This document shows positions 35,452-50,010 of a stretch of 64,000 nt of DNA, in pieces; positions within the stretch are counted from its first letter, which is position 1, and each line of letters begins with the position of its first letter. The notes beneath the pieces are model-generated. The model searched no databases. It was given only the letters and a program-made list of their open reading frames with translations, and had not been told where the DNA came from. The DNA lies in NCBI RefSeq assembly GCF_026162365.1, contig NZ_JAOANW010000002.1, positions 310,001 to 374,000 of the forward strand, in the 5' to 3' direction. The translations under genes and the position numbers were made by a program. This DNA is from Nitratireductor luteus. Lineage in GTDB: Bacteria > Pseudomonadota > Alphaproteobacteria > Rhizobiales > Rhizobiaceae.

Positions 35452-35573
35452 GATCTCTGATCATGGTGAGTATCCCTCTGCGAAGCGGTGCTACAACGCT
35501 GCGCGTTTTTTGGATGCTTGAAGGATGCTGTAACGGTCTTTCCATTTGTACGACCTTGGGCCAGGGTGTGTTC

Positions 35574-36995
35574 ATGCGCCTGAAGCTCCCCCGCATCGCT
35601 GGATACGCCATCGCCTGCTTTGCCCTCCTGGCAGGCACCGTTGCCGCTTTTGCCCATGCTTCGGAGCGGGGGCATGTGCTGCTTCTGCCTACAAGCTATT
35701 ACCTGATGGGCGGCGCGATGGCGGTCGTGTTCAGCTTCGTCGTTCTGGCCTTCATGCCGCCGGGCGCCTTGTTGCAAGCAGGCGCCTGGCGGTTGCGGCT
35801 TTGCCGCTACCGGCCCTTCGGAAAGTTCGCCGCCAGCACATTCTCCTTCGCCGCATTTGCCTTCCTGCTCCATGTGGGCTGGGCCGGCAGCCGCGATCCG
35901 CTGGCTAATCTGCTGCCCTTGACCGTTTGGACCGTGCTCTGGCTCTGCCTGACGCTTGCCCAGGGCATTTTCGGGTTCTGGTGGCCGTGGCTGAACCCTT
36001 GGTACGGACCGTGGCGTATCTGGACCGCAGTGACTGGCCAAACGGCCCGCGAAGATAACCCCTTTCTAATTCTGCCGAATCGGGTGGGAAGATGGCCAGC
36101 CTTTGCCATTCTCTTCGCCTTCGCATGGTTCGAGCTAGTCTCGCTCGCGCCCGACGATCCCGGCAATCTCGCCGGGGTCGTCGTGGCCTATTGGCTTTTC
36201 ACCTTCGCCTGCATCGTCCTCTTCGGTTACGGGACATGGATGGCGAGAGGCGAGTTCTTCTCTGTCTTCTTCCGTCTGGTCTCCCATCTTGCAGTTTTCG
36301 CTGTTCGCGCCGGATACCTCTGGCTGGTTCTGCCGGGAGCGAAGCTGCGGCACGCGCCGGTCCTGCCGGCAAGCGGGGTCGCCTTCGTGCTCCTGGCGCT
36401 GGCTTATATTTCCTTCGACGGGCTGATGCGCACCTTCGCCTGGCTCCAGATCATCGGCGTCAATCCGCTTGAATTTCCAGGCCGCTCCGCAGTCATACTC
36501 CAGAACACGCTTGGGCTTGCCGGAATGGTGACTCTTTTCGCGGTGCTTTTTCTCGCGGCGATCCTGGCGGGCGAAAAGCTGGCCGGTGGAAAGGGAACCG
36601 CGCGCGCAGCTGGCGCTCTCGTGTGGTCGTTCGTGCCCATCGCGCTCGCCTACCACTTTTCCCACTATCTCGTCGTCATGCTGGTGAATGGACAATATGC
36701 TCTGGCCGCAGCTTCGGACCCGCTGGCGCGCGGTTGGAACCTTTTCGGCACGGCCGATATGCCCATCCGCGCCGGCCTGACGCTGGGCGCCGATGCCGCC
36801 TGGGCCATCTGGAATGCGCAGGCGGCGGCGATCGTCGGTGGCCATGTGCTGGCCATCATCCTCGCGCACGCCACTGCCTACGGGCTTTACGGCAGCGCGC
36901 GGCGCGCGGCGTTGAGCCAGATCCCGATGGCCGTCCTGATGATATTCTACACGGTTTTCGGCCTGTGGTTGCTGTCCACCCCGACCGCGGGCTGA
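35574..36995 (+). CDS. Polytopic membrane protein with His-rich segment, function unknown
   Basis: A 473-residue protein with a signal-like first segment (LPRIAGYAIACFALLAGTVAAFAHA) and roughly ten further hydrophobic segments spread to the end. Notable motifs are FGFWWPWLNPWYGPW near residues 140-155 and IALAYHFSHYLVVMLVNGQY near the middle-to-end, with two histidines that could bind metal or heme. It reminds me of the membrane proteins labelled fenitrothion hydrolase in Actinobacteria and Burkholderia, but this is a weak recollection. ATG at 35574 is preferred over 35463 because it starts the signal-like segment and follows AGGG. It lies 150 bases before the importer operon, and may or may not be linked to it. 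Confidence 0.7.
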   Translation: MRLKLPRIAGYAIACFALLAGTVAAFAHASERGHVLLLPTSYYLMGGAMAVVFSFVVLAFMPPGALLQAGAWRLRLCRYRPFGKFAASTFSFAAFAFLLHVGWAGSRDPLANLLPLTVWTVLWLCLTLAQGIFGFWWPWLNPWYGPWRIWTAVTGQTAREDNPFLILPNRVGRWPAFAILFAFAWFELVSLAPDDPGNLAGVVVAYWLFTFACIVLFGYGTWMARGEFFSVFFRLVSHLAVFAVRAGYLWLVLPGAKLRHAPVLPASGVAFVLLALAYISFDGLMRTFAWLQIIGVNPLEFPGRSAVILQNTLGLAGMVTLFAVLFLAAILAGEKLAGGKGTARAAGALVWSFVPIALAYHFSHYLVVMLVNGQYALAAASDPLARGWNLFGTADMPIRAGLTLGADAAWAIWNAQAAAIVGGHVLAIILAHATAYGLYGSARRAALSQIPMAVLMIFYTVFGLWLLSTPTAG

Positions 36996-37054: not shown

Positions 37055-37070
37055 GTTTGTACACAAGTGA
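37055..37070 (+). promoter_or_regulatory. Operator-like motif B upstream of the ABC importer
   Basis: GTTTGTACACAAGTGA lies 76-91 bases before the substrate-binding-protein start. It contains the inverted repeat TTGT..ACAA and matches motif A (49310-49325) at 13 of 16 positions, differing only by transitions. The likely ligand is the cluster MarR protein. Confidence 0.6.
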
Positions 37071-37145
37071 TTTTTGTGGCGAGAGAGGGCACAAAAAAAG
37101 CGCCCCACCGCCCGGTTGGACTGTCTTGAACAGAGGGGAACCGGC

Positions 37146-38450
37146 ATGACTGAAAATCGCAAATCCACCATTCTCACGCCGCACGGCCTGACGCGCCGAA
37201 GTGCGCTCAAGGGCCTTGGCGTCGCCGCCGGCCTCATGGCCGCGCCGGGCTTCGTCCGCTATGGGCAAGCCCAAACCTCCGAACCCATCAGGATCGGATT
37301 TCAGTGCCATCGCACTGGCATCGGCGCCGCCTACGGCCGCTGGTACGAGCGCACCACGACAGCCGCCGCCAAGCTGATAAACGAAGCCGGCGGCATCAAC
37401 GGCCGTCCGCTTGAAATCATCATCGAGGACGATGGCACCGATCCCAAGCGCGGCGCCGAAGTGGTCGAGAAATTCGCTAACCAGCACAAGGTCGACCTGG
37501 TATACGGCACGCTGTTCAGCCACGTGGTCGTCGGCTCCGCGCCGGCCGCGGGCGAGCTGAAGATGCCCTACTATGTGGTCAGCGAGGGCTATCACGTCGC
37601 TTCCGGCAAGATGAACCGCTACTGCGTGCAGCCGGGCATCACCGACGTGAAGGCGCAGGTGCGCTCGGTCGCGCCCTGGATCGCCAACAATCTCGGGAAG
37701 AAGATCACGCTGGTCTATCCCGACTACGCGTTCGGTCATGATCACCGCGATTTCTTCGAGCCAGCCATCCAGGCCCAGGGCGGACAGGTGGTCGCCAAGG
37801 TGCCGATACCGCCGACGGAGACGTCGTTCACCCGCTACCTGCCGCAGATCCCTTCCGACACCGATGTGATTTACCACGTCATGGTCGGTCCCGCCGTCCT
37901 CACCTTCGTCAAGGAACTCGGCGAGTTTTTCGGCAATTCCGGTCCGCAACTTTTCGGCTTCATCGATTCCCTTGAAGCCGTCGACATCAACAGCCCCGGC
38001 CTGGAGTTTCTGGACGGAAGCCATTTCTGGGAAGGCATGCCGCGCTACGCCCAGCCTGACGAGCCTGAGTATGTGTCTTTCTACCGCGATACGGTCGGCA
38101 TTGATGAGAACGGCGCCAGTGTCGGCGATCCGACGGATGTCTCCACCGCCGCCCATATGTTCGGCTGCTGGGAAACGTTGCACATCATCAAGACCGCGAT
38201 GGAAGCCTCCGGCTATGCCGGCCCCGGAGACCGCACCAAGCTGATCGAGGCGACCGAAGCCATGACCGACATGGAAGCGGGCCGCGAACACCCACAGGGC
38301 AAGAAGCGCTTCAACGGCAAGATCCACCAGGTGTTTGGCGAACAGAATATCTCCAGGGTCGAGGATGGCAGGCTCAATGTCGTGCATCGCACCTCGATCG
38401 AAGACGGCCACTACGAGCCGGAAGCCGACTATACGACGATGTTGTTCTGA
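37146..38450 (+). CDS. ABC importer substrate-binding protein, branched-chain amino acid/amide type
   Basis: Periplasmic binding protein of 434 residues. The N-terminus has a Tat-like RRSALKG (residues 17-23) followed by a hydrophobic stretch and a likely cleavage after GQAQ near residue 43. The mature part is a type I periplasmic-binding fold of the LivJ/urea/short-chain amide group (IRIGFQCHRTGIGAAYGRWYERTTTAAAKL and LVYPDYAFGHDHRDFF). The ligand cannot be read from sequence; the neighbouring genes suggest a nicotinate-like or other cyclic acid. GAGGGGA precedes the ATG. An operator-like motif lies upstream, and a 9-bp hairpin separates it from the permease genes. Confidence 0.88.
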   Translation: MTENRKSTILTPHGLTRRSALKGLGVAAGLMAAPGFVRYGQAQTSEPIRIGFQCHRTGIGAAYGRWYERTTTAAAKLINEAGGINGRPLEIIIEDDGTDPKRGAEVVEKFANQHKVDLVYGTLFSHVVVGSAPAAGELKMPYYVVSEGYHVASGKMNRYCVQPGITDVKAQVRSVAPWIANNLGKKITLVYPDYAFGHDHRDFFEPAIQAQGGQVVAKVPIPPTETSFTRYLPQIPSDTDVIYHVMVGPAVLTFVKELGEFFGNSGPQLFGFIDSLEAVDINSPGLEFLDGSHFWEGMPRYAQPDEPEYVSFYRDTVGIDENGASVGDPTDVSTAAHMFGCWETLHIIKTAMEASGYAGPGDRTKLIEATEAMTDMEAGREHPQGKKRFNGKIHQVFGEQNISRVEDGRLNVVHRTSIEDGHYEPEADYTTMLF

Positions 38451-38772
38451 TCCGGCACCGGGCGCTCAAGTGCTCGTACCAGCGCCATCACCGCCGAGGA
38501 AACTCGTGGGTGCGTTTTGGAGGGCGCGAGGTGCCTAGCAGATCATCATCCCGGAAGGCGAAGCACTTCCGGGACCCATTGGAAGCTGAACGTAGATCAG
38601 GGTCGGGTCCCCGTCCCTGCCGCGCACCAGCACCCAGCGGCCCTTCTACAGAGACCGGCCGCTCCTTTCAATTGGTCTCGGCCCTCCTTGCAGTCGGCCG
38701 GGATGACGCCCGCTGTATCGAGTACTGACCTCACAATCTGTCCCGTTGCTTCCAGGAGTTTGCCGCTAACCC
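38451..38772 (+). other. 322-base gap with a hairpin between binding protein and permease genes
   Basis: No gene is seen here. TCCCGGAAG (38549-38557) and CTTCCGGGA (38566-38574) form a perfect 9-bp stem with an 8-nt loop and no T run. Such hairpins after a binding-protein gene commonly stabilise its mRNA or reduce read-through, so that more binding protein than permease is made. No copy of the operator-like motif was found in the gap. Confidence 0.6.
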
Positions 38773-39654
38773 ATGGCCTTCGGACCCTATCTTCTCCTCG
38801 CCACGCTTGAAGGCCTTGTGACGGCGGCGGTGCTGTCGCTCATGGCGCTGGGCCTCTCGCTGGTCTTCGGCGTCATGCGCGTCGTCAACGTCGCCCATGG
38901 CGAGTTCTACATGCTGGGCGCAGTGCTGGCCTGGTGGTTCTCGACCATGCTGGGCGGCCATCCGGCCGTCGGCTTTCTGCTTGCGCTGGTGCTAAGCCCG
39001 CTCGTCGTCGCCGCCGTCGCCTTCGTCGCCGAGCGCCTCGTCCTTAGCCGGCTCAACTATGAGCCGGAGGCCACCATCGTCGCCACGATTGGCCTGCTCT
39101 ACATCATCCAGCAGCTCGCGCTCAGCTTTTACGGCGCGGATGCCCGCCCGGTGGAAGCGCCGTTCAGCTATCGCATCCAGTTGCCCTGGTTCGGCTATTC
39201 TGCCTACAAGCTCGCCGTCATCGCCGCTTCTGCTTTGATGATGATCGGCACATGGTTCGTGCTTACACGAACCAAGATCGGCCTCGTCATGCGTGCCACG
39301 CAATATGACCGCGAGACGGCACAGGCGTTCGGCATTCCGGTTGGCAAGGTTTATGCTGGCGTCTTCGCGCTGGGCGCGGCGCTGGCCGCGTTTGCCGCCG
39401 TCCTCATCGTGCCGATCCAGCAGGCTCACTACCTGATGGGCCACGATCCGCTGCTTCTGTCCTTCATCGTCGTCATCATCGGCGGGCTTGGCTCGCTGCG
39501 CGGCACGGTCGTCGCCGCCATTCTCATTGGCCTGTCGGACGGCATCGTCTCCATGTTCTTTTCGCCGACGCTCGCCAAGATGCTTGCGACGTTCCTCGTC
39601 GCCATGGTCCTCGTCTTCCGCCCGCAGGGTCTGTTCGGAGCGGCCGCGCGATGA
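38773..39654 (+). CDS. ABC importer permease, LivH family
   Basis: First permease of the branched-chain-amino-acid-type (HAAT) importer. The 293-residue protein has about eight membrane segments and the LivH signatures LMALGLSLVFGVMRVVNVAHGEFYMLGA near the N-terminus and VVIIGGLGSLRGTVVAAILIGL near the C-terminus, the latter contacting the ATPases. Its stop overlaps the next permease start (ATGA). It pairs with the LivM-like gene to form the membrane channel. Confidence 0.92.
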   Translation: MAFGPYLLLATLEGLVTAAVLSLMALGLSLVFGVMRVVNVAHGEFYMLGAVLAWWFSTMLGGHPAVGFLLALVLSPLVVAAVAFVAERLVLSRLNYEPEATIVATIGLLYIIQQLALSFYGADARPVEAPFSYRIQLPWFGYSAYKLAVIAASALMMIGTWFVLTRTKIGLVMRATQYDRETAQAFGIPVGKVYAGVFALGAALAAFAAVLIVPIQQAHYLMGHDPLLLSFIVVIIGGLGSLRGTVVAAILIGLSDGIVSMFFSPTLAKMLATFLVAMVLVFRPQGLFGAAAR

Positions 39655-40616
39655 TCTCCCTTCTCCCGCGCGGCAAGACGCTGGTTCTGCATATCGGCAT
39701 CGTCCTAGCGCTGCTCGCGCTCAATTTCATCCTTCCCGAATATCACCGCGGCGTCTTCTCGCGCGTGCTGGTGCTTGCCGTATTCGCCATGGGCTACAAC
39801 ATCGCATTCGGCTATACGGGCCTGCTCAGCCTCGGCCACGCCATGTTCTTCGCCGCCGGTCTCTACGGCGCGGGGCTGACTATCTATCATCTGGACTGGG
39901 GCGTCTGGCCCGCTTTTGCTATGGGGCTTGCGGCCGGCCTCGCGCTGGCGCTTCTGGTGGGCGCGCTGGCGCTGCGGACGACCGGCGTCGCCTTCATGAT
40001 CGTGACACTGATGTTCGCTCAGGTCTTCTACCTCACCACCCTTTATTTCACGACCTATACGCGCGGCGAGGAAGGGCTGGTCCTGCGGCAGCAAGCCCGC
40101 GTTCTTGCGTTTCCCGGCGGCGCGCTCGATCTCTCCGACCCCTCGACACGCTATCTGGTCGCGCTCACGCTCTTCACCCTCGTTCTCGGCGCCGTGCTGT
40201 TTCTGGTCCGTGCGCCGTTCGGCCGTTCGCTGGTGGCCATAAAGGAGAACGAGGAGCGCATGCGCATGCTGGGCTATGACGTCTTTGCCAACAAACTTCT
40301 GTCCGTCGCTCTTTCGGGCCTCGTCTGCGCGGCCTCGGGCGCGGCCTATGCAGTGCTGTTCGGCTATGTCGGATCCGGTTTCGCGGCGATCCAGTATTCG
40401 ATACTGCCGCTGCTCTGGGTGCTTCTAGGCGGCGCGGCGACGACGCTCGGACCCCTGATCGGCACGCTGCTCATGTTCTATGTGATCGACCTTGCCTCCA
40501 GCCACACGACGGCGCATCTGCTGGTCGTCGGCCTCGTCCTGATCGGTCTCATCCTTTACTTCCCGAAGGGCATCGTCGGCACGATACGAGAAAGGTGGGC
40601 GCCATGGCTGCCGTGA
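39651..40616 (+). CDS. ABC importer permease, LivM family
   Basis: Second permease of the importer, 321 residues with about nine or ten membrane segments. LivM-family signatures are AMGYNIAFGYTGLLSLGHAMFFAAGLYGAG, RSLVAIKENEERMRMLGYDVFANKLLSVALSG (the cytoplasmic ATPase-contact loop) and LWVLLGGAATTLGPLIGT. It overlaps LivH by 4 bases and the LivG-like ATPase gene by 13 bases, so the three are translationally coupled. Confidence 0.92.
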   Translation: MISLLPRGKTLVLHIGIVLALLALNFILPEYHRGVFSRVLVLAVFAMGYNIAFGYTGLLSLGHAMFFAAGLYGAGLTIYHLDWGVWPAFAMGLAAGLALALLVGALALRTTGVAFMIVTLMFAQVFYLTTLYFTTYTRGEEGLVLRQQARVLAFPGGALDLSDPSTRYLVALTLFTLVLGAVLFLVRAPFGRSLVAIKENEERMRMLGYDVFANKLLSVALSGLVCAASGAAYAVLFGYVGSGFAAIQYSILPLLWVLLGGAATTLGPLIGTLLMFYVIDLASSHTTAHLLVVGLVLIGLILYFPKGIVGTIRERWAPWLP

Positions 40617-41350
40617 ACCCCCTTCTTTCCACCAACGCGCTCAGCCGCTCCTTCGGCGGACTGAAGGCCGTCGAGAAAGTGGATTTTTCGCTGCCTCAGG
40701 GCCAGACCCGCGCCATCATCGGGCCCAATGGTGCCGGAAAGACCACCTTCGTCAGCCTCGTCTGCGGCCGCGTTGCACCCAGTTCGGGCACCGTGGTCTT
40801 CGACGGAAGCGACATCTCGCGGATGCCTGCCCACCGGCGCGTGCGCGCCGGCATCGCCTACACGTTTCAGATCACCTCCATCTTCGCCAACCTTACGGTG
40901 TTCGACAATGTGGCCCTTGCCGTCCAGCGGCGACTGCTCGGCGACAGGCAGCACGGGCTCTCCAGCCGCCTGCTGCTGAAACACGGCCTCGATGCGCTGG
41001 AAAGGGTCGGGCTTGGGGACCGTGCGGAAGCGCTGGCGGGTAACCTCGCCTATGGCCATCAGCGCCTGCTGGAAGTGGCGATGGGGCTGGCGCTCAAGCC
41101 GCGCCTGCTGATCCTCGACGAGCCCACGCAGGGACTGTCGGACGGCGAAATCGAAAGCTTCATCGCGCTTGTCCGCGAGATCGCCAGCGAGGCGACCGTG
41201 CTTCTCATCGAGCACAATATGGACGTGGTCATGGCGCTGGCCGAGCGCATCACGGTCATGGAACAGGGGCGCATCCTGGCCGAAGGCACGCCGGACGAAA
41301 TCCGCGCGAACAAGGCTGTGCAGCAAGCCTATCTCGGAGGCGATGCGTGA
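40604..41350 (+). CDS. ABC importer ATPase, LivG family
   Basis: Nucleotide-binding subunit of 248 residues. Walker A GPNGAGKT is at residues 40-47, the signature segment is AYGHQRLLEVAMGLALKPRLLILDEPTQGLS (LivG-type, with Walker B LLILDEP), and the switch histidine is in LLIEHNMDVV. ATG at 40604 is preferred over the GTG three codons upstream because GAGAAAGG is eight bases before it. Its stop overlaps the LivF-like start. Confidence 0.93.
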   Translation: MAAVNPLLSTNALSRSFGGLKAVEKVDFSLPQGQTRAIIGPNGAGKTTFVSLVCGRVAPSSGTVVFDGSDISRMPAHRRVRAGIAYTFQITSIFANLTVFDNVALAVQRRLLGDRQHGLSSRLLLKHGLDALERVGLGDRAEALAGNLAYGHQRLLEVAMGLALKPRLLILDEPTQGLSDGEIESFIALVREIASEATVLLIEHNMDVVMALAERITVMEQGRILAEGTPDEIRANKAVQQAYLGGDA

Positions 41351-42054
41351 ACGCAATACTTACCCTCGACGCCGTCGATAGCGGCTACGGCAAGGTGCAG
41401 GTGCTGCGCGGCCTGTCGCTCGACCTGAGGCCGGGCGAGGTGCATTGCCTGCTCGGCCGCAACGGCGCCGGCAAGACCACGACCCTCAAGGCGATTATGG
41501 GACTGCTGCCCGTCTCGGTGGGGAAGATCGTGCTGGACGGCATGACGATCTCCGGCCTGCCCGCCCATGAAGTCCCGCGCGCGGGCATCGCCTACGTGCC
41601 GCAAGGCCGCCGGCTCTTTTCGGAACTGACCGTCGGCGAGAACATCGAGGTCGGCCTGATGACGCGCGGCAAGGGCGGCGAGACCCGCGACAGCGTACTG
41701 GATCTGTTTCCGGTGCTGCGCGAGCGGCTGAAGCAGCGGTCGGGCACGCTCTCCGGCGGCGAGCAGCAGATGCTGGCGATGGCCCGGGCGCTTTGCATCG
41801 AGCCGAAGGTGCTGCTGCTCGACGAGCCGACCGAAGGGCTGATGCCCTCGATGATCGCCCGCATCCGGGAAACGGTCGCTTCCCTGCGCGAACGCGGCGT
41901 TTCCACCATTCTGGTGGAACAGCGCGTCGACGCCGTGCTGCCGGTCGCCGACCGCGTTTCCTTCATTGAAAACGGGCGCAACCGCGAAACGGTGGACATC
42001 GCGCAACTCCGGGCCGACCCGGGCATGGTGCATCGCTATGTGGGCGTGGGATAA
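41347..42054 (+). CDS. ABC importer ATPase, LivF family
   Basis: Second nucleotide-binding subunit, 235 residues. Walker A GRNGAGKT is at residues 37-44, the ABC signature LSGGEQQMLAMARAL, Walker B VLLLDEPTEGL and the switch histidine region ILVEQRVDAVLPVADR are all present (the LivF group has Q-R after E in the H-loop). GTG start overlapping the LivG stop. It ends the importer operon and is convergent with the MarR gene. Confidence 0.93.
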   Translation: MNAILTLDAVDSGYGKVQVLRGLSLDLRPGEVHCLLGRNGAGKTTTLKAIMGLLPVSVGKIVLDGMTISGLPAHEVPRAGIAYVPQGRRLFSELTVGENIEVGLMTRGKGGETRDSVLDLFPVLRERLKQRSGTLSGGEQQMLAMARALCIEPKVLLLDEPTEGLMPSMIARIRETVASLRERGVSTILVEQRVDAVLPVADRVSFIENGRNRETVDIAQLRADPGMVHRYVGVG

Positions 42055-42060
42055 GAGCAA

Positions 42061-42091
42061 CCCCAGGAAAAGTGGAAGCCGGTTTCTGTCA
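42061..42091. repeat. Degenerate copy of the rhizobial palindromic repeat
   Basis: GGAAAAGTGGAAGCCGGTTTC (42066 onward) resembles the CGAAAAGTGGGAACCGGTTTTCGG core of the repeat at 3207-3245. It fills the short gap between convergent LivF and MarR genes. Confidence 0.35.
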
Positions 42092-42118
42092 GGGACTGCG
42101 TGGAATGATCCAGCGCGC

Positions 42119-42583
42119 CTATCCGTCCGCGATCTTTCCCAGGAGCTTCAGAAAAATCTCTGCCTCGCGCGCGTTCAGCGGCTTCAGCGTTTCGGCCGTG
42201 ATCCGCATCGCCACCGGCAACAGCCTCTCGACGAGCACGCGCCCCTCCTCCGAAAGCCCCACCACCAGCCGCCGCCGGTCCAGGGTATGCGGCTTCAGTG
42301 TCACAAGTCCCCGCTTCTTCAGCCGGTCGATCACGCCCTTGATGGTCGCCGCATCCATGGCGATGAGCTGGCCGAGCTGGTTCTGCGATGTTTCGCCGAC
42401 CTCATGAAGCCGCGCCAGCGCGGCGAATTGGGGCGGCGTCAGGTCGCCCACATGCGCTGCGAAGATCGAAAGATGACGCTGGTTCGCCTTACGCAGGACG
42501 AATCCTACCTGCTCGTGCAGGCGGTATTCGCCGCCCGCTTCCAGGTCGTCGTGCACCGGCGGCAGCTTGTCGGCCACGTTCAT
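42119..42583 (-). CDS. MarR family transcriptional regulator
   Basis: A 154-residue winged-helix regulator: LTPPQFAALARLHEVGETSQNQLGQLIAMDAATIKGVIDRLKKRGLVTLKPHTLDRRRLVVGLSEEG spans the recognition helix and the wing with the DxRR motif. Members usually bind palindromes as dimers and release DNA on binding an aromatic or heterocyclic ligand. It is the last gene of the six-gene hydroxylase operon (start overlaps the DUF1185 stop as ATGA), so it is probably autoregulated and probably controls the operator-like motifs at 49310 and 37055. Confidence 0.9.
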   Translation of the reverse strand: MNVADKLPPVHDDLEAGGEYRLHEQVGFVLRKANQRHLSIFAAHVGDLTPPQFAALARLHEVGETSQNQLGQLIAMDAATIKGVIDRLKKRGLVTLKPHTLDRRRLVVGLSEEGRVLVERLLPVAMRITAETLKPLNAREAEIFLKLLGKIADG

Positions 42584-43164
42584 CGCAGCCCGTCCTGGCC
42601 CTTGATGTCTTCGGCACGAAGACCGCCCATGCGCGCATGGACGCGGGGTCCGCAGGTCATGGCGAGCACGAACAGGATTTCATCGGGACGCGGCCCGTCG
42701 GCCATCCCGACTTCCATGGCGTCGAAATGGCTGCGCACATAGGCGGCGTTGATATGGCCGAGCGGTACGTCGATGCGCGCGCCGAAGGCGCCCACCTTCT
42801 TGGCCGAGGGCACGATGGCCCGGGAATCGCCGAGCCGCTCCCGCATGGCATAGCCGCCCGGCACATGCCAGAGCGCGCCGTGCTCCAGCTCGCCCGCCAC
42901 GCCCACGATGGCCCCCTTGCCGAAACCGTCGATCACCGACGTGTCGCCGCCCAAGGCAGCGATCAGCCGGTCGGAGAGCTCCAGCCCCAGCGGTCTCAGA
43001 TCGTCCATCGCGCTTTCGAGCTCGGGGACATAGCGCCCGGCAAAGGGATTGGCCACCAGAGCCATGGCCGCCGCCCGGCGGCGCGGCGTCTCGCGTACCG
43101 GCCCGCCCTCGTGAAATATCTCCTCGGTAAGCAACGTGATCTTTCGGACGGAAAACTCAGGCAT
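42580..43164 (-). CDS. DUF1185 protein (amino acid synthesis family, PF06684)
   Basis: A 194-residue protein recognised as the DUF1185/AA_synth family: VRKITLLTEEIFHEGGP at the N-terminus, AAMALVANPFAGRY, HINAAYVRSHFDAMEVGMADGPRPDEILFVLAM near the end. The family name implies amino acid synthesis, but no reaction is established. Position between UPF0280 and the MarR gene in a hydroxylase operon suggests a catabolic step on a ring-derived acid. ATG at 43164 follows GAGGAAA and overlaps the UPF0280 end by 8 bases; the longer frame upstream is an artefact. Confidence 0.85.
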   Translation of the reverse strand: MPEFSVRKITLLTEEIFHEGGPVRETPRRRAAAMALVANPFAGRYVPELESAMDDLRPLGLELSDRLIAALGGDTSVIDGFGKGAIVGVAGELEHGALWHVPGGYAMRERLGDSRAIVPSAKKVGAFGARIDVPLGHINAAYVRSHFDAMEVGMADGPRPDEILFVLAMTCGPRVHARMGGLRAEDIKGQDGLR

Positions 43165-44071
43165 GGCTCGTTTCCTCAAGTAGAAGCATTTCATTGAATG
43201 GAATGGGACGTTGCCGCGGCGCTTCGCCGAAGCAAGACCGAGAGCCGCCCACCAGACGATGCCGGCCCTGCAGGAAAAGCGCCGCGTCCGCAATCAGGCC
43301 ACGGTCCCGCATGTCTTGCGCCACCGCAAGCCCTGCGTCGAGTGCTGTCGATGCTTCTTTCCCCGACAAAGGCCCAACCGCCACCGTCACCATCTGGTCA
43401 CCGAGATCGCTGTCCGGCGACAATTCATTAGCCGGCAATCGTTCTACGCCGCCATGGCTCGGCAGATTGACGGCGTTGGCGATCAGCGTTGCCGCCACAT
43501 CGGCCTGCGCCGCGCTTGTCGCCAGCACCGTCACGGCGTCCGCGATGCCCAGCGAATGGCTGCGCCCACGCCAGCCGCTGGTGGCGAGCCCGCGCACCGG
43601 GTCGGCGGCGCGGATCGTCAGCCGATCGGAAAACCCATGGCCGGTGCCGGCGATCGCCACCGTCGTCTCAGTGCCTGCGGCAAGGTGCAGCGCGGTATCG
43701 CCGCCATTGTTGACATAGGCGCGCCGGAGCCGCCGGCCGTCGACCATAGCAGCCAGCATCTCATCGGCGACGCCCCCGGCAACCGCCGCCATCGGAGTCA
43801 CAAAGGCCGGATGGTGCCGGGCGCTGGCCGCTTCCATCCGGCGCGCGGTCGAGTGGCGGAAACGGCGCGCCCGCAGCCCGACCGGGCGGCGTAGCGCGGG
43901 CAACTCGCTCACGAGCTCTTCCAGAATGCTCCGGAACCGGGCGGCCGCCTGCGCATAGGCCTGCCTCACCTCGTTCTCCGGGCCGAAAGCTTCGACGATC
44001 AGGTCGATCGGCCCGTGGTTCATATGCAGCCGCCGCTTGTCGGGCAGCCAATGCACGGTCGGGCCCATCAT
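43157..44071 (-). CDS. UPF0280 family protein
   Basis: A 304-residue protein of the UPF0280 family, whose solved member has an ApbE-like (flavin-transferase-like) fold. Landmarks are GPIDLIVEAFG, HPAFVTPMAAVAGGVADEMLAAM, YVNNGGDTALHLAAG and a C-terminal DLGDQMVTVAVGPLS. No function is established. Methanogen homologues are linked to one-carbon metabolism, so the bacterial role could be different. ATG at 44071 overlaps the stop of the 6-hydroxynicotinate-reductase-like gene (ATGA). It follows that gene in the same operon. Confidence 0.85.
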   Translation of the reverse strand: MMGPTVHWLPDKRRLHMNHGPIDLIVEAFGPENEVRQAYAQAAARFRSILEELVSELPALRRPVGLRARRFRHSTARRMEAASARHHPAFVTPMAAVAGGVADEMLAAMVDGRRLRRAYVNNGGDTALHLAAGTETTVAIAGTGHGFSDRLTIRAADPVRGLATSGWRGRSHSLGIADAVTVLATSAAQADVAATLIANAVNLPSHGGVERLPANELSPDSDLGDQMVTVAVGPLSGKEASTALDAGLAVAQDMRDRGLIADAALFLQGRHRLVGGSRSCFGEAPRQRPIPFNEMLLLEETSHA

Positions 44072-45594
44072 TTCCGGGGCTCCCGCCGCAATTGTGCCAG
44101 CGGCGGCCAAGGGCTGCCTGGCGGGGCTGCTTCCTGCCGCCGCTCGTTGAAATACTCGCCGCCCCGCTCCAGCACGTCCTCCAGCGAACGGATCTCGGCC
44201 TCATAGCCGCCGAGACGGATATAATCGTCGCGGCGCATGGTGAACTCGATAGGCGCGACCAGCGCCGGCGTCGGCACATAGCCGAAGGCATTGTCCGGCG
44301 TGCGCGAGACGTCCACCATGATGGTGATGCCCCCGCCCGGCCAGACATAGACCGGCGCGCCACCGCAGGTGACATAAGTCTTCAGCCCCTGCACGGAGCG
44401 AGTGAGGTTGACCGGGTTTTCGGTCACGCCGGCGCGCAGGCTGCCGCCCGCCCCGCCCATGAAAAGCACGGTGCAAAGCGCGGGCTCGCAATTCTCCTCA
44501 ATCAGGTCGACGGATTTGCGCAGCCGCTCGGGAAAGGCCTTCTCCACCGGCTTCAGATCCTCGTCGAGCTCGTAATAGGCGAACTGCTCTCCGGTGGTCG
44601 ATACCATCAGCAGCGAGAGCCCCGGCCGGGCGCCTTTCTTTGCGTTGAAGTCGCCCAGAATCTCCAGCGGGTCGTCGATGGTGGTCCCGCCCCAGCCGAG
44701 CCCCGGCTCGGAGACCTTGAAATAGCGGCCGGGCGTCGATTTGCGGCCGACGATCCTGATCCCGGTATCCTCCCAGCCGATCACCTTGCCGGCCTGATGC
44801 TCGGACACGACACCGGTTATGTGGTCGTCCACCACGACCACCTCGTCCACCAGCCCTTTCCATTGGGTCGCGAACATGCCGATGGTGGCCGACCCGCAAC
44901 CGACCCGCATGCGCGCTTCGCGCTGGCCGTCGATCACCGGTGCCTTGCCGGCTTCCACGATGACCGTCGCGCCGCCGTCAATGGAAAGCTCGACGGGCTT
45001 CTTGTTGCACAGATCCATGAGCGCCCGGCAGGTCACGCGGCCTTCGGACTTGGAGCCCCCGGTCAGGTGCTGCACACCACCCAGCGAGAGCATCTGGCTT
45101 CCGTATTCGGCGGTGGTGACATGGCCTATCACCTCTCCCTCGGCCCGCACGGCAGCTGTTTCCGGGCCAAGATGCCGGTCGGTGTCGATCTTCACCTTGA
45201 CACCGCAATAGGAGAAGATCGCCTCGGTCACTACGGTGACGAGATCGACGCCCTCGACATCCTGACTCACGATAAAGGGTGCCGGCTTATAGTCCGGATA
45301 GGTCGTGCCGGCGCCTATGGCGCTGACGAACCGGCGTCTGGTATTGACCAGCCCGCCATCCCAGGAGCGCTCGTCCTCGAACGGCACCAGCGCCGTGCCA
45401 TCCTCCGCCGCATGCTCCAATACGGTCACCGGATCGCAGCGCGTGATCCGCCCGCCGAAATTGCCGTAGCGGTCGCAGGCGCCGGTGCGGCCTTCGGCGA
45501 TGTAGCACATGACGGGGCAGGCGTCGCAGCGCAGCTTTTCTTTCTGGGCCTTCTTCGGCGGCTCCGCCTCGAAACGTTCGGAAAGCTCGTTCAT
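44068..45594 (-). CDS. 6-hydroxynicotinate reductase-like iron-sulfur protein
   Basis: A 508-residue protein that I recognise as the family of Eubacterium barkeri 6-hydroxynicotinate reductase, which reduces 6-hydroxynicotinate to 1,4,5,6-tetrahydro-6-oxonicotinate using reduced ferredoxin. The N-terminus has a cysteine cluster CDACPVMC (C23, C26, C30) plus C40 and C53, suited to an Fe-S centre. The body is Gly-rich with the conserved RVGCGSATIGMFATQW, GLGWGGTTIDDPLEILGD and LFMGGAGGSLRAGV. Starts by ATGA overlap with the molybdopterin subunit and ends by ATGA overlap with UPF0280. The substrate here is an inference from homology. Confidence 0.82.
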   Translation of the reverse strand: MNELSERFEAEPPKKAQKEKLRCDACPVMCYIAEGRTGACDRYGNFGGRITRCDPVTVLEHAAEDGTALVPFEDERSWDGGLVNTRRRFVSAIGAGTTYPDYKPAPFIVSQDVEGVDLVTVVTEAIFSYCGVKVKIDTDRHLGPETAAVRAEGEVIGHVTTAEYGSQMLSLGGVQHLTGGSKSEGRVTCRALMDLCNKKPVELSIDGGATVIVEAGKAPVIDGQREARMRVGCGSATIGMFATQWKGLVDEVVVVDDHITGVVSEHQAGKVIGWEDTGIRIVGRKSTPGRYFKVSEPGLGWGGTTIDDPLEILGDFNAKKGARPGLSLLMVSTTGEQFAYYELDEDLKPVEKAFPERLRKSVDLIEENCEPALCTVLFMGGAGGSLRAGVTENPVNLTRSVQGLKTYVTCGGAPVYVWPGGGITIMVDVSRTPDNAFGYVPTPALVAPIEFTMRRDDYIRLGGYEAEIRSLEDVLERGGEYFNERRQEAAPPGSPWPPLAQLRREPRK

Positions 45595-48338
45595 GGCTTC
45601 CGCCCCGCTGCCTGAATGGCCGCCAGAACGCGCGACGGCGTTGCCGGCACCTTTTCGATCTCGGCGCCGCTGGCATGGCGGATGGCGTTGAGGATGGCCG
45701 GCGCCGTCGGAATGAGCACGTGCTCGCCCAGCCCCTTTGCGCCAAAGGGGCCTTCAGGGTCCGGCACCTCCACCAGGATCGTCTCGATCGGCGGCACATC
45801 GCCGATTGTGGGGATGAGGTAGTCGTGCAGGTTTTCCGTGCGGCCCGGCACATACTCCTCCATCAGCGCAAGGCCGATCCCCTGGGCGATGCCGCCCTCG
45901 ATCTGCCCTTCGGCCAGGATCGGATTGATGGCCCGGCCGACATCGTGGGCGGCAGTGATCTTCAACAGTCTCACCGTGCCCAGCCTCATGTCCACCTCCA
46001 GCTCTACGATCTGGGCGCCATAGCCATAGACGGCATAGGGCTTGCCCTGGCCCTTCCCGTCGAGCGCGGTGGTCGGCGGATCGTAGGTCTCCTCGGCCGA
46101 GAAAGCATAGCCATGCGCATCGGCTGGAAGATTATCGAGTGACACATGGCGCACCGCCTGCCCTTCGCGAATGACCAGCACCGTGCCCTCCAGCGATATT
46201 TCCGCCGCGTCCGACACGTTCGCGAAACGCAGGATCGTCTCACGCAGCGCGCGCCCCGCCTTCTCCGCCGCCTTTCCCGAAATGAAGGTCTGGCGGGAGG
46301 CGGATGTCTTGCCCGCGTCGGGCGTGATGCCGGTATCGCCGCCAAGCAGCGTGAAGGCCGACAGCGGCAGGCCGCTGGCGTCGGCGCATATCTGCGCGAT
46401 CACCGTGTTCGATCCCTGGCCGATATCGACGGCGCCCTGATGCAGGACGACGGCGCCGTCACGCGAAATTCCGACCCTGATCGTCGAGGGATTGGGCAGC
46501 GCCGTGTTTCCGCAGCCATACCAGCAAGAGGCGACGCCAATCCCCCGCCGCGTCTTGAAGCTCTCCTTGTTGAAGCTTTCCGCATCAGCCAGCGCGCGCT
46601 CCCAGTGCGGCCGCAGTTGCTCCAGACATTGGCGGATGCCGACGCCATGAAGTTCCTGGCCGCAGGTCGTCCGGTCGCCGTCCGACAGCGCATTGACCAG
46701 CCGGAATTCCAGTCGGTCCATCCCCAGCTTCCCGGCCAGGCGGTCGTAGAGCGTCTCCTGCATGATGGTCGCCTGCGGCACGCCGAAGCCGCGAAAGGCA
46801 CCGGAGATCGGCCCGTTGGTATGGATCGCGCGGCCGACCGCGCGGTAATTCGGCGTCCTGTATGGGCCCGACGCGTGCACCGGCACGCGATTGGCCACCG
46901 TCGGACCCCAGCTTGCGTAAGCGCCTGTGTTGAAGTCACCCTCGAAGATCATGCCGGTGATCCGGCCTTGTGCATCGGCGCCGATGCGGGCCTGCATTCT
47001 GGCGGGGTGGCGCTTGGTGGTCGACCGCATGGAATCGCCGCGGCTATAGACGAGAGCCGCCGGCCTGCCGGTTTTAAGCGCCACGAGGCCGATGAGCGGT
47101 TGAAGCGAGACGTCGAGCTTGGACCCGAACCCGCCGCCCGTCGCCAGCGGCACGATCCGCACCTTTTCCGGCGGCAGGCCCAACACCTTGGCCGTGTCGT
47201 CGCGATCCATGAAAGGGGCCTGGGTGCAGGCTTTTATGACCAGCGTGTCGCCATCGACCATGGCATAGCCGGCTTCCGGCTCGATATAGGCATGCTCCAC
47301 ATAAGAGGTCTCCATCGAGCCCTCGACTATGGCCTTGGCGCGGGCGAGACCGGCCTCGGGGACGCCGCTTTCAACGAGCCCCTGCGTCAGGATGTTGTCC
47401 GGGCGGCCCTCATGAACCAGCTTTGCGCCGGGGGTTCTGGCCTCTTCCGTCGTCAGGCAATACGGCAGTTCGGTCCAGGCGATCGGAAAACTGGCCGGAT
47501 CGAGCGCCTCGATGGCGTCGCGTTCCCCTGCGATCAGCGCAACCGCTTCGCCCCGGAACCGGGCACGCCCTTCCGCCAAAGCCGGCTGATCGGCAAAGGG
47601 CGGAATGACGCCGAAGCGGTTTTCACCGGGGATATCCGCCGCCGTGAAGACGCCGACGATGCCCGGATGCGCCGCGATAAAAGCTTCCCTATCGCCGATC
47701 TCGAAGGTCGCGTGCCAAAAAGGCGAACGCACCACCAGCACCGAAAGCGCATCGGACGGCCGCTCGTCGGCGCCGAAGATCTCCCGCCCCGTTACCTTGC
47801 GCTCGCCGTCAAGGCGGATGGGCGAAGCGCCGACGGCCGCGCGCGGGGCGATGGTTCCGCTTTCGACGGCAACTGGCCTGTTTGCGTTCATCACCGCCTG
47901 CACGATCTTGCGGTAGCCCGTGCAGCGACACAGGACACCGCCCAGCGCATCCTGGACCTCGGCCTCCGAGGGTGCCGGGTTCTCATCCAGAAGCGCGCTT
48001 GCCGTCACCAGCAGGCCCGGCGTGCAGATGCCGCACTGTGCCGCGCCATGGCGAAGAAAGGACTGCTGAAGAGCCGAAAGGCGGCCGTTGGAGAGCCCTT
48101 CCACCGTGCGCACCCGCCGGCCCGCAACGTCCGACGCGGGAACGAGGCAGGCGCAAACGACCTCGCCGTCGACCAGCACCGAGCACGCGCCGCAATCGCC
48201 GGCGTCGCAGCCGACCTTGGTTCCCGTCAACCCGACCTTATCGCGCAGAAGCGCGGAAAGCCGCTGAACCGGAGCAGTTTCGACGACGATCGGCCGCCCG
48301 TTGACCTCAAACGATAGGGAAATGCTTCCACCGCTCAT
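45591..48338 (-). CDS. Molybdenum hydroxylase, fused 2Fe-2S and molybdopterin subunit
   Basis: A 915-residue xanthine-oxidase-family protein. Residues 1-155 form the two 2Fe-2S domains: C44, C49, C52, C64 and then C102, C105, C137, C139. Residues about 170-910 are the molybdopterin-binding subunit, with GGGFGSK, AFRGFGVPQATIMQE and catalytic glutamate E872 in GPFGAKGLGEHV. Such enzymes hydroxylate N-heterocycles at carbon next to nitrogen, using water. The FAD part is a separate protein (next gene), so the order here is FeS-Mo plus FAD. Nicotinate is the best guess for substrate given the reductase next to it; a purine or other heterocycle is possible. Confidence 0.9.
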   Translation of the reverse strand: MSGGSISLSFEVNGRPIVVETAPVQRLSALLRDKVGLTGTKVGCDAGDCGACSVLVDGEVVCACLVPASDVAGRRVRTVEGLSNGRLSALQQSFLRHGAAQCGICTPGLLVTASALLDENPAPSEAEVQDALGGVLCRCTGYRKIVQAVMNANRPVAVESGTIAPRAAVGASPIRLDGERKVTGREIFGADERPSDALSVLVVRSPFWHATFEIGDREAFIAAHPGIVGVFTAADIPGENRFGVIPPFADQPALAEGRARFRGEAVALIAGERDAIEALDPASFPIAWTELPYCLTTEEARTPGAKLVHEGRPDNILTQGLVESGVPEAGLARAKAIVEGSMETSYVEHAYIEPEAGYAMVDGDTLVIKACTQAPFMDRDDTAKVLGLPPEKVRIVPLATGGGFGSKLDVSLQPLIGLVALKTGRPAALVYSRGDSMRSTTKRHPARMQARIGADAQGRITGMIFEGDFNTGAYASWGPTVANRVPVHASGPYRTPNYRAVGRAIHTNGPISGAFRGFGVPQATIMQETLYDRLAGKLGMDRLEFRLVNALSDGDRTTCGQELHGVGIRQCLEQLRPHWERALADAESFNKESFKTRRGIGVASCWYGCGNTALPNPSTIRVGISRDGAVVLHQGAVDIGQGSNTVIAQICADASGLPLSAFTLLGGDTGITPDAGKTSASRQTFISGKAAEKAGRALRETILRFANVSDAAEISLEGTVLVIREGQAVRHVSLDNLPADAHGYAFSAEETYDPPTTALDGKGQGKPYAVYGYGAQIVELEVDMRLGTVRLLKITAAHDVGRAINPILAEGQIEGGIAQGIGLALMEEYVPGRTENLHDYLIPTIGDVPPIETILVEVPDPEGPFGAKGLGEHVLIPTAPAILNAIRHASGAEIEKVPATPSRVLAAIQAAGRKP

Positions 48339-49192
48339 GCCGCAACGCCTCGCTCTGCGTCGGTGAAAGCGGCTTGGAGCAGCGCCCTTTCAACGATCTC
48401 TCGCGCCCCCAGCCTGCGATATTCGGCACTGCCGCGAACGTCGTCGATGGGGGACAATTCCGAAAGTGGATAATCTACGACAAGTTCTGATATATTACTG
48501 ATATATCTACCGATCAGCGCTTGCTCCAATCCCTCGATCCGCTGCGCCACTGCCGAGCAGGAGCCGACGGCGACCGCCGCCTCCACGATTCGCTCTCCTT
48601 CCAGCGCGATGCGCGCCGCAGCCATGGCGATGGATATGATGAGGTAGCGCCGCGCACCGAGCTTCACGAAGCTGGACCGGCCGGCCGTCGCGTGCCTGGG
48701 CACATGCACCGCCGTTACGAGCTCGCCGGGCCGAAGCGCCGTTTTGCGGTTGCCGAGAACGAATTCGGACAGCCGGACCAGACGCTGGCCTTCATCGGCA
48801 GAACGTAGCTCAACGCGCGCGTCCAGCGCCAAGAGAGGCGGCATCCCATCGGCGGCGGGAGAAGCGTTGCACAGATTGCCGGCCACCGTCCCACGGTTCT
48901 GGATCTGGATGGAACCCACCTCGCGCGCGGCCTGCTTGAGCATGTCGAAGGCCGGCGGCAGGGGATGGCGCATGATCTCGGTCCAGCTCGTCCGCGCGCC
49001 GATGACGACATGGTCATCCGTCTCGGTGATGCCGGCGAGCTCCGGCAGTCCGTTGATGTCGAGCACGTCTTGTTTGAGGGGCCCGGCACCCAGTGCCGGG
49101 TAGAAATCGGTGCCGCCCGCAAGCACGGTCCATGGCTTCTGCTTCAGCAGAAGCAGCGCCTCCTCGAGTTCGGTCGGTCTGGCATAGTCCAT
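48335..49192 (-). CDS. Molybdenum hydroxylase, FAD-binding subunit
   Basis: A 285-residue CoxM/xanthine dehydrogenase middle-subunit-like flavoprotein. The FAD pyrophosphate motif is TVLAGGTDFYPAL (residues 22-34), with GSIQIQNRGTVAGNLCNASPAADGMPPLLALDA and the C-terminal CO-dehydrogenase-flavoprotein domain from about residue 175. ATG at 49192 is preferred over the upstream start because it begins the conserved MDYARPTELEEAL. It is the first gene of the operon. Its stop overlaps the start of the FeS-Mo subunit (ATGA). A 9-bp direct repeat CTGATATAT (48487, 48498) lies inside it. Confidence 0.9.
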   Translation of the reverse strand: MDYARPTELEEALLLLKQKPWTVLAGGTDFYPALGAGPLKQDVLDINGLPELAGITETDDHVVIGARTSWTEIMRHPLPPAFDMLKQAAREVGSIQIQNRGTVAGNLCNASPAADGMPPLLALDARVELRSADEGQRLVRLSEFVLGNRKTALRPGELVTAVHVPRHATAGRSSFVKLGARRYLIISIAMAAARIALEGERIVEAAVAVGSCSAVAQRIEGLEQALIGRYISNISELVVDYPLSELSPIDDVRGSAEYRRLGAREIVERALLQAAFTDAERGVAA

Positions 49193-49309
49193 GGCTTGCC
49201 TGCCTGCCTCGTCTTGCACGCCGCGCACCGCCGCTGCCTTCGATCAGTGTCGAACCGGGCGGCACGCTCCTGTCCCAGCGCCATTCTTGTTGGTCTGCGG
49301 CGCAAACTC

Positions 49310-49325
49310 GTTTGTATACGAATGA
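49310..49325 (+). promoter_or_regulatory. Operator-like motif A between the hydroxylase operon and pncA
   Basis: GTTTGTATACGAATGA lies in the 212-base divergent gap, 80-95 bases before pncA and about 118 bases before the FAD-subunit gene. Its core TTTGTATACGAA is a near palindrome (5 of 6 pairs). It matches motif B (37055-37070) at 13 of 16 positions. Confidence 0.62.
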
Positions 49326-49404
49326 TACGCCGATGCGCCTGCTTGTCAAAGGGGAACATCCGGTCCACCCTTGCACCGATCACTCACATATGCGGAGGCA
49401 AGGC

Positions 49405-50010
49405 ATGGCCGATGAGGCGCTGATCGTCATCGACGTCCAGAATGATTTCTGCCCGGGCGGGGCACTCGCCGTGAACGAGGGTGACCAGGTGGTGCCGCTC
49501 ATCAACCGGCTGATCCAGCGGTTCGACCATGTAGTGCTGACTCAGGACTGGCATCCCGCCGGGCATTCGAGTTTCGCGTCCCGCCATGCCGGGAAACAGC
49601 CCTTCGAAACCATCGCCATGCCCTATGGCGAACAGACACTGTGGCCGGACCATTGCGTGCAGGGCACGCACGGGGCGGAGTTTCACGATGACCTGGAATG
49701 GACGAAGGCGGAGCTGGTGATCAGGAAGGGTTTCCGCAGGGAAATCGACAGCTATTCGGCCTTCTTCGAGAACGACCACATAACCCCGACGGGCCTTTCG
49801 GGCTATCTGCGCGAGCGCGGCATCACAAGGGTCACGCTAGCCGGGCTCGCCACCGATTACTGCGTGGCCTATTCGGCGCTGGACGCGCGCAGACAAGGCT
49901 TCGAGGCGACCGTCCTGCTCGACGCCTGCCGTGGCATCGACCTCGGCGGATCAATGGCGGCGATGGAGAAAAGGATGCGCGAGGCGGGTGTGGCGCTGGC
50001 CCAAACGTGA
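49405..50010 (+). CDS. pncA: Nicotinamidase
   Basis: Hydrolyses nicotinamide to nicotinate and ammonia, feeding NAD salvage or, here possibly, nicotinate catabolism. The 201-residue isochorismatase-fold enzyme has D10 (IDVQNDF), K108 and C153 as the catalytic triad (C153 in LATDYCVAYSA) and the metal site D48, H50, H54 in TQDWHPAGH. GGAGG precedes the ATG at 49405. It is divergent from the hydroxylase operon, and the operator-like motif lies between them. A hairpin terminator follows. Confidence 0.94.
   Translation: MADEALIVIDVQNDFCPGGALAVNEGDQVVPLINRLIQRFDHVVLTQDWHPAGHSSFASRHAGKQPFETIAMPYGEQTLWPDHCVQGTHGAEFHDDLEWTKAELVIRKGFRREIDSYSAFFENDHITPTGLSGYLRERGITRVTLAGLATDYCVAYSALDARRQGFEATVLLDACRGIDLGGSMAAMEKRMREAGVALAQT

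Follow-up and report, generated by a model that had tools for sequence, protein, structure and literature searches.

How is the pyridine ring opened by a bacterium whose putative nicotinate locus carries no gene for the ring-opening enamidase? This question is raised by a locus of Nitratireductor luteus, which lies in a stretch of 64,000 nucleotides (contig NZ_JAOANW010000002.1, positions 310,001 to 374,000; the whole stretch is referred to below as the window) and encodes a molybdenum hydroxylase, a 6-hydroxynicotinate-reductase-like Fe-S protein (HNR), proteins of the UPF0280 and PF06684 families, a MarR regulator, a HAAT-type ABC importer and a nicotinamidase. Comparison of sequences and gene neighbourhoods identifies it as a putative locus for the catabolism of nicotinate or nicotinamide, of a type already described, whose ring opener appears to have been replaced and to be encoded in trans. 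The whole of this reading (the nicotinate route, a HyuA/HyuB pair, HyuAB, as the opener, and a need of HNR for UPF0280) is considered fairly probable; within it, the gene content, the co-occurrence, the swapping of ring openers and the fold of the UPF0280 model are findings of the comparison, the route itself is taken from the literature on relatives with the cluster, and we infer the substrate, each reaction and the roles of UPF0280 and of a ferredoxin-NADP reductase. An incomplete-looking locus would thereby become a complete candidate pathway, with HyuAB as the proposed opener in 26 of the 44 HNR-bearing genomes of the first sample described below.

In the proposed route, the importer would take up nicotinate, or nicotinamide that would be deamidated by the nicotinamidase PncA. 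The hydroxylase, composed of a FAD subunit and a fused FeS-Mo subunit, would convert nicotinate to 6-hydroxynicotinate, and HNR, with UPF0280 as a maturation or accessory factor that it needs to work, would reduce and dearomatise this to 1,4,5,6-tetrahydro-6-oxonicotinate (THON), a six-membered lactam. The ring of THON would then be opened, in place of the enamidase, by a HyuAB that resembles caprolactamase, depends on ATP and has its genes on another contig; the ferredoxin-NADP reductase adjoining HyuAB may feed HNR, and MarR is the likely regulator. In two other loci a ferredoxin-NADP reductase gene adjoins that of HNR (L087, 13006-13833, Sagittula stellata; L088, 12881-13654, a Comamonadaceae plasmid), where it is a possible electron supply.

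With its chains summed, the molybdenum hydroxylase has nicotinate dehydrogenase 3hrd as its best PDB match (249+223+132 = 604 bits), followed by 4-hydroxybenzoyl-CoA reductase (430 bits) and a Desulfovibrio aldehyde oxidoreductase (428 bits in one chain). A xanthine dehydrogenase was also considered and rejected, as all xanthine dehydrogenase NCBIfam models listed score below their cut-off. HNR falls into no NCBIfam family, and none of its Pfam matches reaches the cut-off; its name is taken from plasmid relatives annotated as 6-hydroxynicotinate reductase (26 matching records, not all of them annotated), and it is assigned to the same family as these. Across 36 compared HNR sequences the identity to the window protein is at least 58%, and eight cysteines (positions 23, 26, 30, 40, 130, 189, 233 and 369) are conserved in at least 35. 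The only recurrent match in a Pfam scan of the 36 was a short stretch of GCV_T_C, a glycine-cleavage T-protein domain; it stays below the cut-off even at its best, which is in the window protein (17.7 bits, E 4e-05). No sequence link of HNR to solved structures was found by phmmer or profile searches against the PDB, its AlphaFold model (mean pLDDT 70.5, pTM 0.67; too weak to exclude a known fold) gave nothing below E 0.001 in Foldseek, and no match was found in the phage collection. In one locus (L064, 9225-10753, genome G028) HNR is found in two reading frames, being either frameshifted or in two separate parts.

Ring opening was followed in a class sample of 289 genomes, of which 44 carry HNR (the N. 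luteus genome included), and in a phylum sample of 398 searched genomes, of which 32 carry HNR and 28 of these are new. Among named genomes, the best 80 of 588 relatives were retained, mostly Mesorhizobium and Rhodobacterales, and 124 relatives' loci were compared overall. Two candidate openers occur in these loci: an enamidase-like amidohydrolase and a HyuA/HyuB pair akin to N-methylhydantoinase and caprolactamase. The enamidase-like protein encoded beside HNR matches a single solved structure at E<=1e-10, which is 2vun, an enamidase (E 7e-109). The first-pass annotation of this DNA had seen no enamidase in the locus and proposed that the pathway is either completed elsewhere or carried through by two locus proteins of unknown function. 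The first observation extends to the whole N. luteus genome, where no enamidase ortholog was found (best match 24-25%, none at E<=1e-60), and it is completion elsewhere that the data favour: HyuB and HyuA, together with a divergent ferredoxin-NADP reductase, are encoded on another contig (G000:C42). The best NCBIfam matches of this HyuA and HyuB are CapA and CapB, well under the cut-offs (487 of 1000 and 331 of 1000 bits, respectively); judged by these scores, the pair is related to caprolactamase CapAB but not a member of it. ATP-dependent lactam opening is the known chemistry of the caprolactamase/hydantoinase/oxoprolinase family (6yra, 7hk5), whereas the substrate proposed here is a six-membered enamide lactam. 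A literature search limited to open-licence PMC articles, as far as their accessible text extends, returned no report of HyuAB in nicotinate breakdown.

With presence limits of at least 68% identity to the query for the enamidase and at least 57% for HyuA, the first sample has the enamidase in 17 of its 44 genomes with HNR, HyuA in 26, both in none and neither in one (Fisher p 3e-11, ignoring kinship), the last being a 70% complete genome (G226). Where the 17 genomes with the enamidase have a listed HyuA match, the best one does not exceed 46% identity; in five of them all matches are weaker and fall outside the listing (best E 1e-120). Over all 289 genomes, either opener is present in 43 of the 44 with HNR versus 3 of the 245 others. 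The 28 new HNR genomes comprise 14 with the enamidase only, 12 with HyuA only, two with both and none with neither, so that exactly one opener is present in 69 of the 72 HNR genomes of the pooled samples. At the level of loci, HyuA was found in 37 of the 124 and the enamidase in 14, never together. On an HNR tree built with a quick method (65 rows, of which 64 are labelled, 20 enamidase and 44 HyuA), the opener changes 8 times, and at least 6 changes are forced by well-supported branches. The exchange seems to have occurred repeatedly during evolution. Of the 31 loci of the nearest relatives (L090-L120), 13 have HyuA on the far side of the same operon, at 0.25-2.3 kb past MarR in 12 of them and at 4.9 kb in L090, and in each of the 13 a ferredoxin-NADP reductase is divergent from HyuA; in the N. 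luteus genome the two parts are thus separated. On a Fuscovulum ytuae plasmid the operon, the importer and HyuAB form one run, without PncA.

Several observations weigh against this interpretation. The FAD subunit does not discriminate in favour of nicotinate dehydrogenase, as 3hrd is only sixth among its PDB matches. The prediction, set beforehand, that both openers would never occur together failed in 2 of the 28 second-sample genomes. In both of these the enamidase (63-64%) stands separately, where its neighbours are two PF06684 genes and a different ABC-type transporter, and no HNR was found within the 20 kb fetched around it (L188, L189), an explanation of the exception that was found afterwards. 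Neither opener is present within the available stretch in 73 of the 124 loci, including that of the closest relative (L120), and two HyuA genomes of the first sample contain a distant enamidase-like protein below the presence limit (42% in G104; 35% over part of the protein in G064). Moreover, HyuA occurs at 60-61% in 2 of the 289 genomes, both HNR-negative, beside another molybdenum hydroxylase, and at 52-54% in five further HNR-negative genomes, while one such genome has the enamidase at 72%, its match being interrupted by a stop codon; neither opener is therefore exclusive to the nicotinate pathway. Finally, the gene for the ferredoxin-NADP reductase may have a housekeeping function. In the two HNR-negative loci in which HyuAB adjoins another molybdenum hydroxylase (L194, 7135-14124; L195, 2979-11674), a neighbouring gene presumably encodes a beta-keto acid cleavage enzyme-like protein, and a different heterocycle pathway is probable there.

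The second proposal of the first-pass annotation, ring opening by the PF06684 and UPF0280 proteins with HyuAB unrelated to the pathway, draws on the presence of both genes in the operon and of PF06684 genes next to the enamidase in a locus without HNR; because of this latter association, PF06684 proteins may act close to ring opening. Opening by the two proteins themselves is less likely because both are also present where an enamidase exists, UPF0280 being equally frequent alongside a clear one. In addition, PF06684 is absent from 10 of the 37 HyuA loci (though possibly encoded elsewhere in those genomes), and the complementarity of enamidase and HyuA would be left unexplained. We regard this proposal as very improbable and retain HyuAB as the preferred opener. 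The enamidase modules without HNR, each with two PF06684 genes and a different transporter, span 7956-10285 in L188 and 7776-10186 in L189.

UPF0280 looks like a near-obligate partner of HNR, because it is present in 72 of 72 HNR genomes of both samples and in 0 of the 297 HNR-negative genomes searched. In the 289 genomes (E<=1e-20) the sets of genomes with UPF0280 and with HNR are equal (44 and 44), and in the second sample (E<=1e-10) UPF0280 was found in 28 of 28 HNR genomes and in 0 of 52 chosen HNR-negative ones. Only 4 of the 124 loci lack it; three of these (L065, L146 and L164) end in HNR or within about 0.3 kb of it, and the sole local exception is L145, a short metagenome-assembly contig that continues for about 1.5 kb past HNR without UPF0280. 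In L145 (2704-5694) two ABC ATPase matches occupy the place after HNR. No report of UPF0280 with HNR was found in the literature search, within the open-licence text that it covered.

What UPF0280 may do for HNR was approached through its predicted structure (pLDDT 91.5), which matches 2o34 and then, among Foldseek hits with E<0.01, only ApbE-type proteins (E about 1e-4), whereas by sequence the Pfam ApbE match reaches only E 0.65; the fold is thus ApbE-like as far as the model goes. Residues N121, G124 and D125 (in an NNGGD stretch) and D191 and T195 (in an ADAAAT stretch) are invariant in 30 rows, and these stretches presumably correspond to the metal-site motifs of ApbE. UPF0280 could accordingly be imagined to attach flavin covalently to HNR in the manner of ApbE, and in the Hnr of Eubacterium barkeri a flavin is presumably bound covalently. 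This role is rather doubtful: TM-scores to ApbE are only 0.30-0.47 with an rmsd of at least 6.6, four ApbE-target-like patterns occur in 0 of the 36 HNR sequences, HNR alone having been checked among the proteins of the genome, and, according to PMC5764234, the likeness of COG2122 (UPF0280) to ApbE does not seem to extend to the region that binds flavin. Another role, which we entertain tentatively, is that UPF0280 supplies sulfur or helps to build an Fe-S centre of HNR, in the way supposed for its relatives and the DUF39/COG1900 enzymes. In Desulfovibrio, COG2122 and DUF39 are both important for making homocysteine (PMC5764234), and MA1715, called the COG2122 ortholog, is described as sulfur-trafficking (PMC12068725); the eight conserved cysteines of HNR would suit this role, but UPF0280 itself has no cysteine among its invariant or nearly invariant positions. 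The likeness is that the same family serves as the needed partner of a specialised enzyme; the difference is that the partner in the window is HNR, for which neither a Pfam scan (PF01837) nor Foldseek revealed a link to DUF39, in a comparison without a DUF39 sequence and with an HNR model of moderate confidence. Both lines could be joined, again with some hesitation, by viewing UPF0280/COG2122 as a general maturation system of HNR and of the thiol-forming DUF39 enzymes, installing a cofactor or sulfur without which HNR, as a dearomatising Fe-S enzyme, would not function, in a pathway where two unrelated openers, one of them ATP-costing, are freely swapped. Through its occurrence alongside HNR, UPF0280, a poorly understood family, is linked to another enzyme in addition to DUF39.

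The locus could also serve another N-heterocyclic acid (a nicotinate bearing a substituent, for instance, or pyrazinoate), with a difference in substrate between its HyuAB version and its enamidase version. The loci do vary in this sense: two types of periplasmic substrate-binding protein (SBP) are mutually exclusive (the window type in 52 of the 124 loci, the other in 21, both in none), a second PF06684 gene is present in 14 of 14 enamidase loci versus 2 of the 37 loci with HyuA (one of these is ambiguous) and 5 of the remaining 73, and PncA, which by its NCBIfam name also acts on pyrazinamide, is found in 14 of 37 HyuA loci versus 1 of 14 enamidase loci. Ten of the 124 loci (L034, L039, L041, L048, L057, L058, L063, L071, L087 and L150) contain a Rieske oxygenase, hinting at substituted substrates. 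On the other hand, each SBP type occurs with each opener, the opener switches repeatedly among HNR relatives, HNR keeps an identity of at least 58% to the window protein across the 36 sequences, and the linkage of PncA, seen in 36 of the 124 loci, speaks for nicotinate or nicotinamide. Another substrate is therefore unlikely, and nicotinate or nicotinamide remains the preferred one.

The gene layout of the locus is given in Table 1. The five-gene importer, the six-gene operon with overlaps of 4 or 8 bases and the divergent nicotinamidase, all recognised in the first-pass annotation, are confirmed at the positions given there. The operon is read on the minus strand in the order FAD subunit, FeS-Mo subunit, HNR, UPF0280, PF06684 and MarR, with overlaps of 4, 4, 4, 8 and 4 bases; HNR and PF06684 have one copy each in the genome. 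The arrangement is not due to chance, because UPF0280 accompanies HNR in 120 of the 124 relatives' loci. Co-occurrence across genomes, which that annotation had suggested examining, is also seen in 40 fetched loci, where HNR is joined by UPF0280 in 39, by the FeS-Mo subunit in 36 and by the FAD subunit in 35; PF06684, MarR and a HAAT importer are also frequent companions. Among the best 80 of 588 relatives, the HNR nearest to that of the window is from Chelativorans alearense (88%), followed by Aminobacter and Mesorhizobium (up to 84%). Upstream of the importer, the family-less protein F14 looks multi-pass and travels with the window-type importer, being present in 33 of 52 loci with the window-type SBP versus 2 of 72 without it.

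Table 1. Genes of the putative nicotinate locus, with positions in the window.
Feature	Position	Strand	Basis and remarks
Membrane protein F14	35568..36995	+	no Pfam or NCBIfam family; start uncertain; possibly uptake accessory
HAAT periplasmic SBP	37146..38450	+	Peripla_BP_6, E 1e-51
HAAT permease 1	38773..39654	+	BPD_transp_2, E 9e-38
HAAT permease 2	39651..40616	+	BPD_transp_2, E 1.5e-37
HAAT ATPase 1	40595..41350	+	ABC_tran plus BCA_ABC_TP_C
HAAT ATPase 2	41347..42054	+	ABC_tran
MarR regulator, final operon gene	42119..42583	-	MarR, E 4e-11
PF06684/DUF1185 protein, type 1	42580..43164	-	E 1e-66
UPF0280 (COG2122) protein, proposed HNR partner	43157..44071	-	NF003322, 373 bits (cut-off 290); co-occurrence; ApbE-like fold of model
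6-hydroxynicotinate-reductase-like Fe-S protein (HNR)	44068..45594	-	likeness to annotated plasmid relatives; conserved Cys
Molybdenum hydroxylase, fused FeS and Mo subunit	45591..48338	-	Pfam/NCBIfam scans, PDB matches
Molybdenum hydroxylase, FAD subunit	48335..49192	-	FAD_binding_5, E 7e-43; in-frame GTG extends to 49228
Nicotinamidase/pyrazinamidase PncA, divergent	49405..50010	+	NCBIfam PRK11609, 221 bits (cut-off 174)

The closest known system is the reductive nicotinate cluster of Azorhizobium caulinodans and Bradyrhizobiaceae, which proceeds via THON and, according to PMC3511419, comprises the first three genes of the pathway together with a putative transporter of nicotinate and two conserved proteins of unknown function; strain SG-6C, whose HNR is 42% identical to that of E. 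barkeri, uses nicotinate as a carbon source (PMC3511419). The window likewise contains a molybdenum hydroxylase, an HNR homolog, an ABC importer and two conserved unknown proteins, the latter being, we infer, UPF0280 and PF06684. It differs in that an enamidase ortholog is missing from the genome and HyuAB is encoded in trans. The linkage of a nicotinamidase and MarR to the window locus may be a further difference. By this comparison, the import and aerobic breakdown of nicotinate or nicotinamide proposed in the first-pass annotation gains support, with the reductive route as the best reading and nicotinate as the presumed substrate. The pathway of E. barkeri (Ndh, Hnr and enamidase; described in part in PMC3511419) shares the first two enzyme types; in the window, by contrast, the FeS and Mo subunits are fused in one chain, the ring opener appears to have been replaced and the relatives are aerobic.

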